DNA of 43,984 nucleotides, taken from an uncultured Bacteroidota bacterium. GTDB taxonomy: Bacteria; Bacteroidota; Bacteroidia; Chitinophagales; LD1. Below the pieces are notes generated by a model. The model worked only from the letters and a program-made list of their open reading frames with translations. It was not told the origin of the DNA and did not search any database. Positions 445 to 43,984 of the stretch are shown piece after piece. Numbering within the stretch: the stretch's first letter is position 1; each line of letters begins with the position of its first letter. The stretch covers positions 1 through 43,984 of the forward strand of contig CAIOTH010000052.1 in assembly GCA_903861145.1 (NCBI GenBank). The letters are read 5' to 3'. Made by a program: the position numbers and the translations under genes.

Positions 445-1425
445 ATGGCTTTAAGGCGTAATGAAAAATACATTTTTAACACCCATACCCTCAGCTACGA
501 AAAGGCTGTTATTGGATGGGGTACCCGTATTTTCAGGTTTGCCGCTTTTATCATTGCCGCGCTGGTGTTTTCACTGGGTATATCAACCATTTATTACAAG
601 TTCTTCGATTCGCCTAAAGAGAAGATTTTAAAGGTGGAGTTGAACGAAATGAAAGACCAGTATTACGTATTAAACCAGGAGGTAAACAGGCTTTCGACGG
701 TTTTAGATGGCTTACATTACCGCGATGGCAATGTTTACCGTGTAATGTTTGAAGCCGAACCCATTAGCAACGACGAATGGCAGGCGGGCTCGGGCGGCGT
801 TAACAAATACCACTACCTCGAAAAATATGACAACGGCGACCTCATAAAGGACCTTTCGGTAAAGGTAGATAAGCTTAAAAAGCAAATGGTAATTCAGAGC
901 AAAAGCTATGACCAGATTGCTGATTTGATAAAGAACCAGCAAAAGATGTTATCGTCTATTCCATCGATACAACCAGTACCTAACAGAAATTTGGAACGTA
1001 TGGCATCGGGCTACGGATGGCGGGTTGACCCCATTTATAAAATACAGGAGTTTCATAAGGGTATGGATTTTACCTGTCCCATTGGCACGCAGGTGCACGT
1101 TACCGGCGATGGTACTGTTGAAACTGTTGACTTTAGCTATGGTGGTTATGGAAACGAGGTAATTGTTAACCATGGTTTTGGCTATCGCACACGGTATGCC
1201 CACCTTTCAAAATTTAATGTAAGGCCCGGCCAAAAGCTGAAACGTGGTGATGTAATCGGCTATTCGGGTAACACAGGTAAATCAACAGGCCCGCATGTGC
1301 ATTACGAGGTAATGAAAAACGGCGAGGTACTTAACCCAGTTTACTTTTACTATAACGACCTTAAGGACTCCGACTTTGAGAAAATGTTGAAAATTTCTAA
1401 CAACCCTGGCCAAACGCTTGATTAA
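445..1425 (+). CDS. M23 (LytM) family metallopeptidase, membrane anchored
   Basis: Predicted periplasmic peptidoglycan endopeptidase of 326 residues. One membrane helix at about residues 31-51 follows a basic N-terminus. A coiled-coil-like stretch covers about 60-170. The C-terminal LytM domain at about 185-300 has the zinc ligands H204-xxx-D208 (HKGMD), H253 (YAHL) and the H284-V-H286 signature (GPHVHYE), so the enzyme looks active. It is divergent from alaS and is followed 36 bases later by a MerR-type gene in the same direction, so the two may be cotranscribed. Such coiled-coil M23 proteins usually act in cell wall remodelling or division; the exact substrate bond cannot be read from the sequence. 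Confidence 0.93.
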   Translation: MALRRNEKYIFNTHTLSYEKAVIGWGTRIFRFAAFIIAALVFSLGISTIYYKFFDSPKEKILKVELNEMKDQYYVLNQEVNRLSTVLDGLHYRDGNVYRVMFEAEPISNDEWQAGSGGVNKYHYLEKYDNGDLIKDLSVKVDKLKKQMVIQSKSYDQIADLIKNQQKMLSSIPSIQPVPNRNLERMASGYGWRVDPIYKIQEFHKGMDFTCPIGTQVHVTGDGTVETVDFSYGGYGNEVIVNHGFGYRTRYAHLSKFNVRPGQKLKRGDVIGYSGNTGKSTGPHVHYEVMKNGEVLNPVYFYYNDLKDSDFEKMLKISNNPGQTLD

Positions 1426-1800: not shown

Positions 1801-3518
1801 AACACGTATGTTCTTCGCGCCAGGTTTATTCTAAATCCAATATTGAACATAAAAGAACTAATACTTGGAGTTGGATTATTGACTGACTTAACCGTGGAAA
1901 AATCGCGGTATAAAATGCTGGCATCAAAATTTATGTTATGCCAAATTTGATAAGTTGCCAAAAGCTCAAGGTAGTTGATTGTTCCCTTTACTCCCTGGCC
2001 CATTTTGTTTCCGTACAAGCTGTTAACCAATGTTCCCCCACCCGATGGCGTAAAAATATCTCCGCCGTAATTGCTTAAGTTGCCATTTGCAAGCAAAGTA
2101 TCCCCGCCAACCCGCGCAACAAAGTACTTAAGGTTGAATGAAAGTTTAGGGGCAGGCTGATAACGCAGGTTAATGATAAATTCGTAAAAATTAGCGCCAA
2201 GTGGGTCACCCAGGGGCTGATTGTAGTTGGTATAATCAATAGTCCCTGCATCGTGGGTATAGGTATATGGCCTAACATAATTAAACTCTAACTGGGCATC
2301 AAGGTTGGGCACAATATCAATGTATTTAACGCCGGCCTGTACCCCCCATTTGTTAGCCCACCAGCCGTTGTTGCTAAAAAAATTCTTCACGTTAAACTCA
2401 TCCAATAACAGCTGCCCATATAGCGAAGCATGACTTGCGATATTGATTTTTATATCCCCACCAACCACCACGTTATCGGGGCTGCCCAGCGAGTGCTCAA
2501 CTGCCCGATAGAAAATAATAGGGTTAAGATACTGAAACTCAAATCCATTACCCCGGCTTAAAATAACATTCTCAAAAAGGCCCATATTAAGCCAATGCGT
2601 TGCCTGCAGGCTAAGGTGGTGCATGGCCATATATTTTTTAGGTAGCAACTGGTCTGCACCCCGGGTATATTGATCAGTTAACTCGGCATATATATTATCA
2701 TAGTTAAACCGCCAGAAGTGAATATTGAACCGGAGAAACAGATATGGCGCAGAGAAATCAGACAGAAAAAGGGAGCGCTGCCCATCGCCAATAAAAAATT
2801 TATCGCGGCCAAAGCTTATGTTCATGTACTTCAAAACATTTACATTGATATAGCCGCGAGCATCAAAGTAATCTATACCATCCTTAAACTTAAAAATGTT
2901 AGAACTGTAATCTTTCCAATAACTCTGGCCAGGCACAAAGCGATACGGGCCAGTGGTAACCACGTTTGCAACATACAAGGGAGGCCGCTCATCATTACCA
3001 GTGGCATTAAAATAAAAGCTGAACACCTGTTTAATATTCCCTCGGACTTCTAATCCCACCTGCCTGTTAAACAAAAAGCGCCCCCCACCGGCACTTTCTC
3101 CCCCAACAATAGCCCCCAGCATAGGGTTAATCCGCAAATTCCACAGTCCTTTCTTTTTAGAGCTAACCGAAAAGAAACTGGCCGGCTCTGTATACAACTT
3201 CCTCCATAAAGGGCGTTTGGTTTGACTATGCAAACTATCCAGCCACTCAGGGTTTTCATCAATCAAATACTGAAGTTGCGATTTTTGAACTTTGTTAAAC
3301 CGGATATTCGAAAGTAAAATTGATTCAGCTACTTTAGCCACGTCACCTCTGTAATAAGGCTTATCAACGGTAAATTCAACAGGGGCTATCTTGCCATACT
3401 TTATATCAAGCCTGTCCATAAACACATAGCTATCGGTACCGAGGTTAATAGATGTGCCTTGTGAAAATGCATGTAAACCAAACGCGAGAAAAAGAAAAAC
3501 GGTTAAAAGTCTCTGCAT
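1797..3518 (-). CDS. Outer membrane beta-barrel, capsule assembly Wzi / gliding RemB-like
   Basis: Predicted outer membrane protein of 573 residues. I place the start at 3518, because an ordinary signal peptide then follows (MQRLLTVFLFLAFGLHAFSQ); an upstream in-frame start at 3557 would put 13 extra residues before it. The body is rich in alternating aromatic/polar strands, and the middle contains the motif-like stretch NVILSRGNGFEFQYLNPIIF typical of Wzi-type capsule assembly proteins and the RemB-like proteins of gliding Bacteroidota. It ends FNIGFRINLARRTYVF, an aromatic C-terminus fitting a barrel. Role is inferred: surface polysaccharide attachment or gliding-associated. Its 3' end overlaps the merR-type gene tail-to-tail by four bases and no terminator is visible. 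Confidence 0.8.
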   Translation of the reverse strand: MQRLLTVFLFLAFGLHAFSQGTSINLGTDSYVFMDRLDIKYGKIAPVEFTVDKPYYRGDVAKVAESILLSNIRFNKVQKSQLQYLIDENPEWLDSLHSQTKRPLWRKLYTEPASFFSVSSKKKGLWNLRINPMLGAIVGGESAGGGRFLFNRQVGLEVRGNIKQVFSFYFNATGNDERPPLYVANVVTTGPYRFVPGQSYWKDYSSNIFKFKDGIDYFDARGYINVNVLKYMNISFGRDKFFIGDGQRSLFLSDFSAPYLFLRFNIHFWRFNYDNIYAELTDQYTRGADQLLPKKYMAMHHLSLQATHWLNMGLFENVILSRGNGFEFQYLNPIIFYRAVEHSLGSPDNVVVGGDIKINIASHASLYGQLLLDEFNVKNFFSNNGWWANKWGVQAGVKYIDIVPNLDAQLEFNYVRPYTYTHDAGTIDYTNYNQPLGDPLGANFYEFIINLRYQPAPKLSFNLKYFVARVGGDTLLANGNLSNYGGDIFTPSGGGTLVNSLYGNKMGQGVKGTINYLELLATYQIWHNINFDASILYRDFSTVKSVNNPTPSISSFMFNIGFRINLARRTYVF

Positions 3519-3612
3519 ACAAATTTTGAACTGCGTGGAAGCCTGTAATAGCGCCAAACCTAAATTAAATTTGGGTTCTTAGCAAATAGCATCCATTAAT
3601 TTGAACACTCCG

Positions 3613-4188
3613 TCAGCCTTTAATAACTTTTCCTTTTGTCATTCTATAAAAAGTCAGCAGCCAAAGTGCCACAGCTATAATAAAAGTCTGAACCGCTAAC
3701 AAACTCCATTTAAGCGAAGTAAAAAGTGATGATATTGTGGCCAGCCTATCAGAAATATCGGGGTAGCCTTTTAACATACTCACTATACAGGCATTTTCAC
3801 TATAGTCAGCAAGCATTACTAAAAACGGCAACAAATGAATATACCTGATTCGAAAACCGTAGGGTGCCAGCAACTTAAAAACCCATCCCATTATCATCAA
3901 AAACAAAAAGGTATAGGAAATCGGATAGAACGTATCGGCAATCAATTCAAACTTAGCGGCAAACGCACGTCCATTATCCCCGTATTGCGAAATAATAGCC
4001 CTCGCCTTTTCGGGTGTATAGCCAAATTGTAAATCAAGTATCTCAACATTTTTACCACTTATTTGCTGCATCATTTGCGCGCCTTTGGGCATAACTACGG
4101 CGCCAAAAACAATGTAAATTAACAGTGCGGCAACAAAGGTTTTCCAACCGGCAATGCGCCAAAAGAAATCGGCAATTTTCTGTAACAT
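3613..4188 (-). CDS. Integral membrane protein of unknown function
   Basis: 191 residues with about four hydrophobic helices (about 17-35, 85-107, 117-135 and 160-180) and a larger loop at about 36-80 containing FGYTPEKARAIISQYGDNGR. The C-terminus is basic (FYRMTKGKVIKG). I do not recognise a characterised family; similar four-helix proteins are scattered in bacteria without known function. It lies between the Wzi-like gene and the divergent msrB and shares the strand of the former, 94 bases upstream of that gene's start. Confidence 0.72.
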   Translation of the reverse strand: MLQKIADFFWRIAGWKTFVAALLIYIVFGAVVMPKGAQMMQQISGKNVEILDLQFGYTPEKARAIISQYGDNGRAFAAKFELIADTFYPISYTFLFLMIMGWVFKLLAPYGFRIRYIHLLPFLVMLADYSENACIVSMLKGYPDISDRLATISSLFTSLKWSLLAVQTFIIAVALWLLTFYRMTKGKVIKG

Positions 4189-42233: not shown

Positions 42234-42380
42234 AACCTTTATGTTTTAATCCCCAAAAACAGGGCAACATCAAATCTACCTTAAACTTGTAAAAAATTAA
42301 GTATCAGGTTGTTAAAAGTGTGGATAAGGGTTTGAGCCTGCAGCCCGGGTTTTAACAAATATGAGGTGTGATAAAAAAAA

Positions 42381-42764
42381 TTAAACCCCAAAGGCGTCAC
42401 CTAACTCCCTACGGTTCTTCTTAGTTGGTCGGCCTTGTTTGCTCTGGCGCTTACCGGTATAATCAATAAAAGCTGAGTCTGCTTTCTTGATTATTTCCTC
42501 TTCCGGCGTAAGGTCAACGTAATAGTTAATGGCTTCGGCGTATTGAACGCGTTGGTGTAACAAACCGGTTACTTCAATAATCCATTTTCGGGCTTCGGTT
42601 TTAATTTCGAAACGGTCGGCAATGCTTACGGGTTTGCTGGCTTTAATATCTAGCCCGTTGCTTTTTACCTTTCCGGCGGCTATAGCATCGGCGGCCTGTG
42701 TCCGGGTTTTAAAAATGCGTATAGCCCATAAGTATTTATCTACCCTAAGCTTTTCTGCGTTCAT
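42381..42764 (-). CDS. S4-domain RNA-binding protein (Hsp15-like)
   Basis: 127 residues. The S4 domain at about 6-65 (RVDKYLWAIRIFKTRTQAADAIAAGKVKSNG) matches ribosome-associated heat shock protein Hsp15, which binds stalled 50S subunits carrying peptidyl-tRNA. The C-terminal tail is basic (GKRQSKQGRPTKKNRREL), as in that family. Its ATG overlaps the stop of the upstream gene in an ATGA, so the two are translationally coupled. Function assigned by family only. Confidence 0.9.
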   Translation of the reverse strand: MNAEKLRVDKYLWAIRIFKTRTQAADAIAAGKVKSNGLDIKASKPVSIADRFEIKTEARKWIIEVTGLLHQRVQYAEAINYYVDLTPEEEIIKKADSAFIDYTGKRQSKQGRPTKKNRRELGDAFGV

Positions 42765-43580
42765 TTTACAGCAGGGGCCTCTTCGGGGTAACCAAACAAG
42801 CGTTTTTGTTTTACAATATCAGCAACGGTATCGGGCACCATTTGCTCCCAACCCTTTTCGCCCGATTTTATCATTTGTATAACCTTAGGCGAAAATATCT
42901 GCATCACATCTTTATTGTAACCCTTCAAGTCAACCAAAAAACCGTTTTGGCATAAATGAATAAACAGGTGTTTCAGGCTCTCCGGAATTTTCAGGTTTTC
43001 GGTAGTTATTACCGGCTTATCCTTTTCGGGCTGATACGGATAAACCAACATTTGCGCATTGCGCATAAATATTTCGCCAAAATAATGCAGCAATTCGCCA
43101 GGGCCGGTTTTGTAATACTTCTCGTTAAACAACTCAACAATGTTCAATATGCCCAGTATAATACCAATGCTTTGAGGTTTGCACCGGTCAAGATAGTTAA
43201 CCAAAACATCATGCTTGTGGCAATTAGAAACCATAACGGTGTAACCCAGGCTGCAAAGAATATCGGCCCGGTCTAAAAAATCCTTCGTATCAAAATCACC
43301 ATCCCCCGACAAGTTGTTCAAGGTAATTTCGGCCAGCAAAACCAAATCATCGGTATCGCCCTGCTGGCTTTTAAAATACTCCATGCCACAGCGCATCATA
43401 TCCTCGTTAACTTTTGTTACCGGCCTGAACCTGCCACGAAGGCAAAGAATATTCTTTTTATACAGCAAATCTTTGGGTTGGTAGGCATCCTTATCGGCAC
43501 CAAAAATAGTACCATCGGTATATCGCTTTTTAACCAGCTGCAATGCCAGGAGTCGGTTATCTATTTTGTCGAAGTAAGGC
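42761..43580 (-). pseudogene. C-terminal part of a conserved protein, apparently 5'-truncated
   Basis: I do not recognise a named function. The reading frame stays open from about 43592, past the first usable start (a TTG at 43543). The upstream part (PYFDKIDNRLLALQLVKKRYTDG) already reads like the interior of a soluble protein, which continues LLYKKNILCLRGRFRPVTKVN, SLGYTVMVSNCHKHDVL, FNEKYYKTGPGELLHYFGEIF and ends KRLFGYPEEAPAVK. My inference is that the N-terminal part is missing: the preceding DNA on the same strand belongs to a recombinase fragment, with the join near 43579. Translation could still begin at the TTG and give 260 residues. Coupled by ATGA to the S4 gene. Confidence 0.6.
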
Positions 43581-43728
43581 CCGTTGCGGGGTCAAACTCC
43601 TTTTCTTTCAGGTAGGTTTTAAGTCCAATATCCTTAAATTTTGTTCCTGTGTAAATCCTGACTACTAAAGGATAAGTTTCATCCTGTAGCTTTCTTCTTT
43701 TGTCCAAAAGGACTTTAAATGTGCTCAT
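43561..43728 (-). pseudogene. Truncated tyrosine recombinase: arm-binding domain only
   Basis: A 55-residue frame, MSTFKVLLDKRRKLQDETYP then LVVRIYTGTKFKDIGLKTYL and KEKEFDPATG, then a short junk end (LTSTK) and a stop. The first 50 residues match the N-terminal arm-type DNA-binding domain of Bacteroidota integrases (full length about 400 residues). The core-binding and catalytic domains (R...HxxR...Y) are absent. The sequence changes abruptly after the ATG of FDPATG to that of another gene. Two 11-base direct repeats lie just upstream (43758-43779), as expected for arm sites. A relic or a misjoined end. Confidence 0.75.
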
Positions 43729-43757
43729 GGTTTGTGGTTAAACCAAGCTCACACAAA

Positions 43758-43779
43758 ATTTGCAAGTCATTTGCAAGTT
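43758..43779. repeat. Tandem 11-base direct repeat upstream of the recombinase fragment
   Basis: ATTTGCAAGTC (43758-43768) followed directly by ATTTGCAAGTT (43769-43779). Located 30 bases before the recombinase ATG; a candidate pair of arm-type sites bound by the adjacent domain, or part of its promoter. Confidence 0.5.
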
Positions 43780-43818
43780 AAACCCTGAAAACAGTTACTT
43801 TTTTTAGCGAAAAAAATT

Positions 43819-43826
43819 TACTTTTG
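43819..43826 (+). promoter_or_regulatory. TAnnTTTG box of the Arg-type tRNA half
   Basis: TACTTTTG, exact consensus, ending 12 bases before the tRNA 5' end at 43839. No TTTG at 19 bases upstream. The spacing fits a tRNA promoter with a short leader. Confidence 0.6.
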
Positions 43827-43838
43827 CGCCCGTTCAAC

Positions 43839-43882
43839 GACCCGGTAGCTCAGCTGGATAGAGCAACAGTTTTCGAGACTGT
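43839..43882 (+). pseudogene. 5' half of a tRNA gene (Arg-type), 3' half missing
   Basis: Acceptor strand GACCCGG (43839-43845), TA, D-stem GCTC/GAGC with loop AGCTGGATA, then anticodon stem ACAGT/ACTGT (43866-43870, 43878-43882). After this the expected T-arm (GGTTCGAATCC-like) and acceptor complement CCGGGTC are absent; instead the sequence is the reverse complement of another tRNA. As written the loop would give anticodon TCG, but that loop belongs to the opposite-strand tRNA-Ser, so the original identity is uncertain; the D-arm fits tRNA-Arg. Confidence 0.72.
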
Positions 43883-43909
43883 TCCATTCAACCGCTCTGG
43901 CATCTTTCC
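43866..43909 (-). pseudogene. 5' half of tRNA-Ser(CGA), 3' half missing
   Basis: Minus strand: acceptor GGAAAGA (43909 down to 43903), TG, the D-arm CCAGAGCGGTTGAATGG typical of tRNA-Ser, then anticodon stem ACAGT, loop CTCGAAA (anticodon CGA) and ACTGT. The long variable arm, T-arm and 3' acceptor strand that must follow are replaced by the reverse complement of the Arg-type tRNA half. A promoter-like TATATTCG lies at 43915-43922 on the minus strand. Confidence 0.78.
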
Positions 43910-43914
43910 GGGGA

Positions 43915-43922
43915 CGAATATA
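43915..43922 (-). promoter_or_regulatory. Promoter-like TATATTCG of the tRNA-Ser half
   Basis: Minus strand TATATTCG, five bases before the tRNA-Ser 5' end. It is the same variant box as that in front of the candidate small RNA at 8281-8288. Confidence 0.45.
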
Positions 43923-43955
43923 GGGCATTCGCAAATACTTATTTATTAAAAACCC

Positions 43956-43984
43956 ATGGCTATTCCTTTCGTCAGCTTTGCGTA
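43956..43984 (+). CDS. Possible start of a gene cut by the window edge
   Basis: ATG at 43956 opens a frame MAIPFVSFA to the end of the window, only nine codons. The sequence IPFVSF resembles the start of DegT/DnrJ-type sugar aminotransferases, but this is too short to claim. Divergent from the tRNA-Ser half. Confidence 0.2.

Follow-up and report, generated by a model that had tools for sequence, protein, structure and literature searches.

The window is the whole stretch of DNA analysed, 43,984 nucleotides, and it is a complete contig (C52), one of 174 in a 4.70 Mb bin (completeness 98.65%, contamination 1.83%). Within its last 146 bases, two tRNA halves are fused head-to-head. On the plus strand, positions 43839-43882 read as a tRNA-Arg-like 5' half including the anticodon arm; on the minus strand, positions 43909-43866 give the 5' half and anticodon arm of tRNA-Ser(CGA), in the same letters as on another contig of the bin, C40. 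The letters thus bear out the two halves given in a preliminary description of this DNA, along with the promoter-like box it placed before each: TACTTTTG for tRNA-Arg (43819-43826, plus strand) and TATATTCG for tRNA-Ser (43922-43915, minus strand). Either TTACTTTTG or TTATTTTTG stands upstream of tRNA-Arg in several relatives. Neither ARAGORN nor Rfam at its gathering threshold called any tRNA in the window.

Relatives identify the Arg gene. Among the loci fetched, all 11 whole copies are tRNA-Arg(TCT), as is one more copy cut by a contig end. The anticodon arm ACAGT-TTTCTAA-ACTGT occurs in four of the whole copies and in the cut one, whereas the reversed arm of tRNA-Ser(CGA) reads ACAGT-TTTCGAG-ACTGT. 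The two arms are alike at 15 of 17 bases, and nine of these form an exact run, ACAGTTTTC (43866-43874), common to tRNA-Arg(TCT) and reversed tRNA-Ser(CGA). The anticodon stem-loop had been described as shared over its full 17 bases, which does not hold for the real tRNA-Arg(TCT). The join lies within the nine-base run: positions 43839-43874 on the plus strand are the 5' part of tRNA-Arg(TCT), a gene that is whole in the relatives, and from 43875 onward the sequence is that of tRNA-Ser. Because the exact run covers only 43866-43874, the apparent TCG anticodon of the 'Arg' half is Ser sequence beyond the join.

We compared 34 tRNA sequences, of which 32 belong to the bin and two are the Arg(TCT) gene of a relative and the Ser half on C40, and found an inverted shared run of at least 9 bases in 14 of 561 pairs. 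Judged from these sequences, a 9-base microhomology is in the upper tail of tRNA pairs yet not rare, and the anticodon arm is a fair, not unusual, place for mispriming.

The terminal 119 bases of the contig (43866-43984) also belong to another locus. They match the minus strand of C40:7953-8071 with 100% identity; the identity begins at the first base of the shared run and is exactly 119 bases long, as a 120-base version does not match. On C40 the Ser 5' half crosses the junction and continues as the variable arm and T arm of Ser, with no tRNA-Arg. The preliminary description had both tRNAs lacking their 3' halves, which is correct inside the window and fails for Ser once C40 is considered.

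Overlaps between other contig ends suggest how such a tail could arise in assembly. Among 61 contig ends compared, clean overlaps were found for six pairs, every one exactly 141 bases long; seven of the 61 ends were chosen for an earlier sequence match, a choice that favours finding overlaps. The ends of C63, C93, C124 and C125 carry a common dispersed repeat, without a clean overlap. According to a passage in PMC9784204, the default k values of MEGAHIT are 21, 29, 39, 59, 79, 99, 119 and 141; a passage in PMC9878933 gives a different list, from 49 to 149, under stated default settings. The lengths 119 and 141 are adjacent k values in the list as it appears in PMC9784204, and the other clean overlaps are 141 bases long. 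The bin may have been assembled with MEGAHIT at default k, and the tail would fit a path that merged with C40 at k = 119 and went no further at k = 141, leaving C40 continuous. We infer this from a single case: no other overlap among the ends compared is 119 bases long, and this one stops inside C40, not at the C40 terminus.

We consider the fused tRNA halves to be a contig-end artefact, a microhomology chimera formed in library preparation or assembly, with a probability of roughly 80%. In such a chimera, a tRNA-Arg(TCT) strand that ends in ACAGTTTTC would pair with its complement in tRNA-Ser(CGA), GAAAACTGT. If library preparation or amplification then copied this strand toward the Ser 5' end, presumably by a template switch, exactly the head-to-head product would result. 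A de Bruijn assembler would then follow the chimeric path, merge with the tRNA-Ser path and halt one k-mer (119 bases) later. The observations behind this reading are the position at a contig end, the 119-base identity to C40, the 9-base microhomology, an Arg 3' half not found in the bin and the Ser path crossing the junction. Several points count against it: a 9-base join requires that some reads, or a gap-filling step, contained the join, the 119-base overlap is a single case that ends inside C40, and the tRNA-Ser on C40 is itself abnormal, so that C40 is not a clean reference.

Whole tRNA-Ser(CGA) genes are present in 8 of 8 relative loci fetched for it, and in six relatives (G009, G010, G012, G013, G016 and G017) tRNA-Arg(TCT) and tRNA-Ser(CGA) are on separate contigs. 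In the bin, the 32 intact tRNAs include only ACG and CCG as Arg types. Checks proposed with the preliminary description were a search for intact copies of both tRNAs and for the reciprocal product, in which the 3' halves would be joined. No tRNA-Arg(TCT) was found elsewhere in the bin and the Ser gene continues on C40 in abnormal form; the bin, which may be incomplete, contains no 3' half of tRNA-Arg(TCT) at up to 3 mismatches and no reciprocal junction was found in it. The codons read by this tRNA are in use, with AGA (52) and AGG (61) making up 113 of 9973 codons in 22 long ORFs of the window (at least 250 codons from ATG, picked mechanically), so the organism should possess tRNA-Arg(TCT). 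Most likely the gene was lost by assembly at the end of this contig. Since tRNA-Asp is likewise absent from the intact tRNAs, the bin loses tRNAs elsewhere too, and absence is weak evidence for gene loss.

The join was also sought outside the bin. One scan each of genome_contigs and viral_contigs, collections that may omit this genome or others very near it, gave no match to the junction pattern. When positions 42350-43984 of the window were compared with 60 genomes, none of the matches listed from outside its own genome covers both halves. Of the two origins first put forward, an integrase-mediated inversion and a misassembly through an 8-9 base shared sequence, it is the latter that best fits the contig end, the 119-base overlap, the Ser path on C40, the failure to find an Arg 3' half or reciprocal product in the bin and the empty scans of two collections.

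The abnormality of the C40 tRNA-Ser is a 46-base double hairpin in its T arm (C40:8095-8140); the gene goes uncalled by ARAGORN, its 3' end and acceptor do not pair, and C40 ends 113 bases beyond the part shared with the window. The hairpin pattern occurs in 2 of 298 genomes of the order, in three copies, all at the same T-arm place of tRNA-Ser sequences from two species of the genus. The other two copies are in G014 (C1:109-154 and 537-582, minus strand), and because the same insertion occurs twice in tRNA-Ser genes there, the C40 insertion is probably real. It may be a hairpin insertion targeted to tRNA-Ser. In G014, an ORF matching GIY-YIG in Pfam has an intact tRNA-Ser(GGA) on one side and a 3' remnant of tRNA-Ser(CGA) on the other. 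Another contig end of the bin (C17:1-70) has a tRNA 5' half, Lys with anticodon CTT by eye, that, once past the anticodon arm, gives way to hairpin-like sequence that is not tRNA.

A truncated tyrosine recombinase does lie near the fusion, as had been reported: the fragment (43583-43728, minus strand) starts 110 bases from tRNA-Arg and comprises only the N-terminal Arm-DNA-bind_5 part. Over 209 bases that include sequence upstream of it, the fragment shares 92% identity with the region of an intact integrase on C34, a tyrosine recombinase of 401 aa that adjoins an intact tRNA-Gly(CCC). On C34 (50500-56500, local 2541-3903) the Arm-DNA-bind_5 recombinase is divergent from the 5' end of this tRNA-Gly(CCC). 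The usual place of an integrase is the 3' end of a tRNA. Among five relative loci fetched, integrase-related sequences are 5' of and divergent from the tRNA in four (tRNA-Gly three times, tRNA-Met once); at the fifth, the related sequence is on the 3' side of tRNA-Lys. This integrase family thus lies near tRNAs, and its use of anticodon loops is only putative. A search of genome_contigs for relatives of the C34 integrase gave 78 stretches matching the pattern and 0 confirmed, so the attachment site of the family could not be derived from named genomes. Integration into an anticodon loop by a C34-type integrase was considered and set aside, as a search of C34 from 35000 to its end (108397) turned up no duplicate of the tRNA-Gly 5' part.

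The integrase fragment is part of a second suspicious join, at about 43583 and within 402 bases of the contig end. Here the N-terminal integrase piece abuts, on the minus strand, aa 199-473 of a conserved protein that matches no Pfam family (42761-43588, the C-terminal part). A search of the bin gave no N-terminal part of this protein, which is whole in G012 and starts there 125 bases from tRNA-Arg(TCT). The join at 43583 is either a real deletion or another chimera.

Several biological origins have to be weighed against a chimera. A real rearrangement might be present in part of the population, arising where the inverted Arg(TCT) and Ser(CGA) anticodon arms recombine or allow a template switch in vivo, and coexisting with the unrearranged form. 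The join is exact at a hairpin whose two versions are alike at 15 of 17 bases, the other form is seen on C40, and the hairpin insertions in tRNA genes of the genus suggest that hairpin events may occur there. We nevertheless regard this as unlikely, because the bin yielded neither the reciprocal product nor the Arg 3' half, and because the window stops after 119 bases of Ser sequence whereas C40 is continuous. Slightly less probable still is the proposition that two unlike tRNA genes were truly joined in inverted orientation, at low frequency and through their anticodon hairpins, by in vivo hairpin template switching or an integrase, in a genus with tRNA hairpin insertions. As a special case of a population rearrangement, a tyrosine recombinase acting on anticodon loops could be the agent; the integrase fragment beginning so close to tRNA-Arg speaks for it, as does the finding that all five relative loci fetched have related sequences next to a tRNA. 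Such an agent is very improbable, since the fragment in the window is the arm-binding part alone, its intact C34 relative is beside a whole tRNA with no duplicated tRNA half found on C34:35000-108397, and the exact shared run is just 9 bases. The integrase-mediated inversion of the preliminary description gains no positive support.

We rejected a fusion fixed in the genome, with both tRNA genes lost, as the least credible reading. The contig does show the fusion, and a search of the bin gave no further tRNA-Arg(TCT), but AGA and AGG codons are used with no alternative tRNA found to read them, the unfused tRNA-Ser path is present on C40, and the bin is without other needed tRNAs such as Asp, so that the absence weighs little. 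A chimeric contig end can mimic a tRNA rearrangement made by an integrase and can even yield a false anticodon; for contig ends of this kind, a comparison with the other contigs of the bin should come first. If the fusion is an artefact, as we think, it has little biological weight. If it is real, it would be evidence that unlike tRNA genes can undergo inversion in a bacterium by way of their anticodon hairpins.

Three known systems resemble the fusion. In split tRNA genes of the Nanoarchaeum type, the 5' half has no adjacent 3' half, and the 5' half here likewise has no neighbouring 3' half. In contrast to those genes, no 3' half gene was found elsewhere in the bin, for which reason we rejected a split tRNA gene, and the copies in relatives are whole (11 of 11). 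A passage of PMC1855051 describes amplification chimeras as typically joined in inverted orientation over 2-21 complementary bases. The fusion shares with these multiple displacement amplification chimeras, as far as that passage describes them, the inverted segments and the short complementary run, here of 9 bases; it differs in that neither closeness of the two segments in the genome nor amplification of the sample is established. In Thermococcus, part of PMC5495485 describes an integrase-driven inversion between tRNA genes, and within the part available the inversion of an unlike Leu/Thr pair was not detected. There the integrase was shown to be active, while the window contains only an integrase fragment and no reciprocal junction was found. 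As in the Thermococcus case excerpted from PMC5495485, where an integrase is the agent, the breakpoints are inside oppositely oriented tRNA genes, and this inversion is the nearest biological parallel should the event be real.
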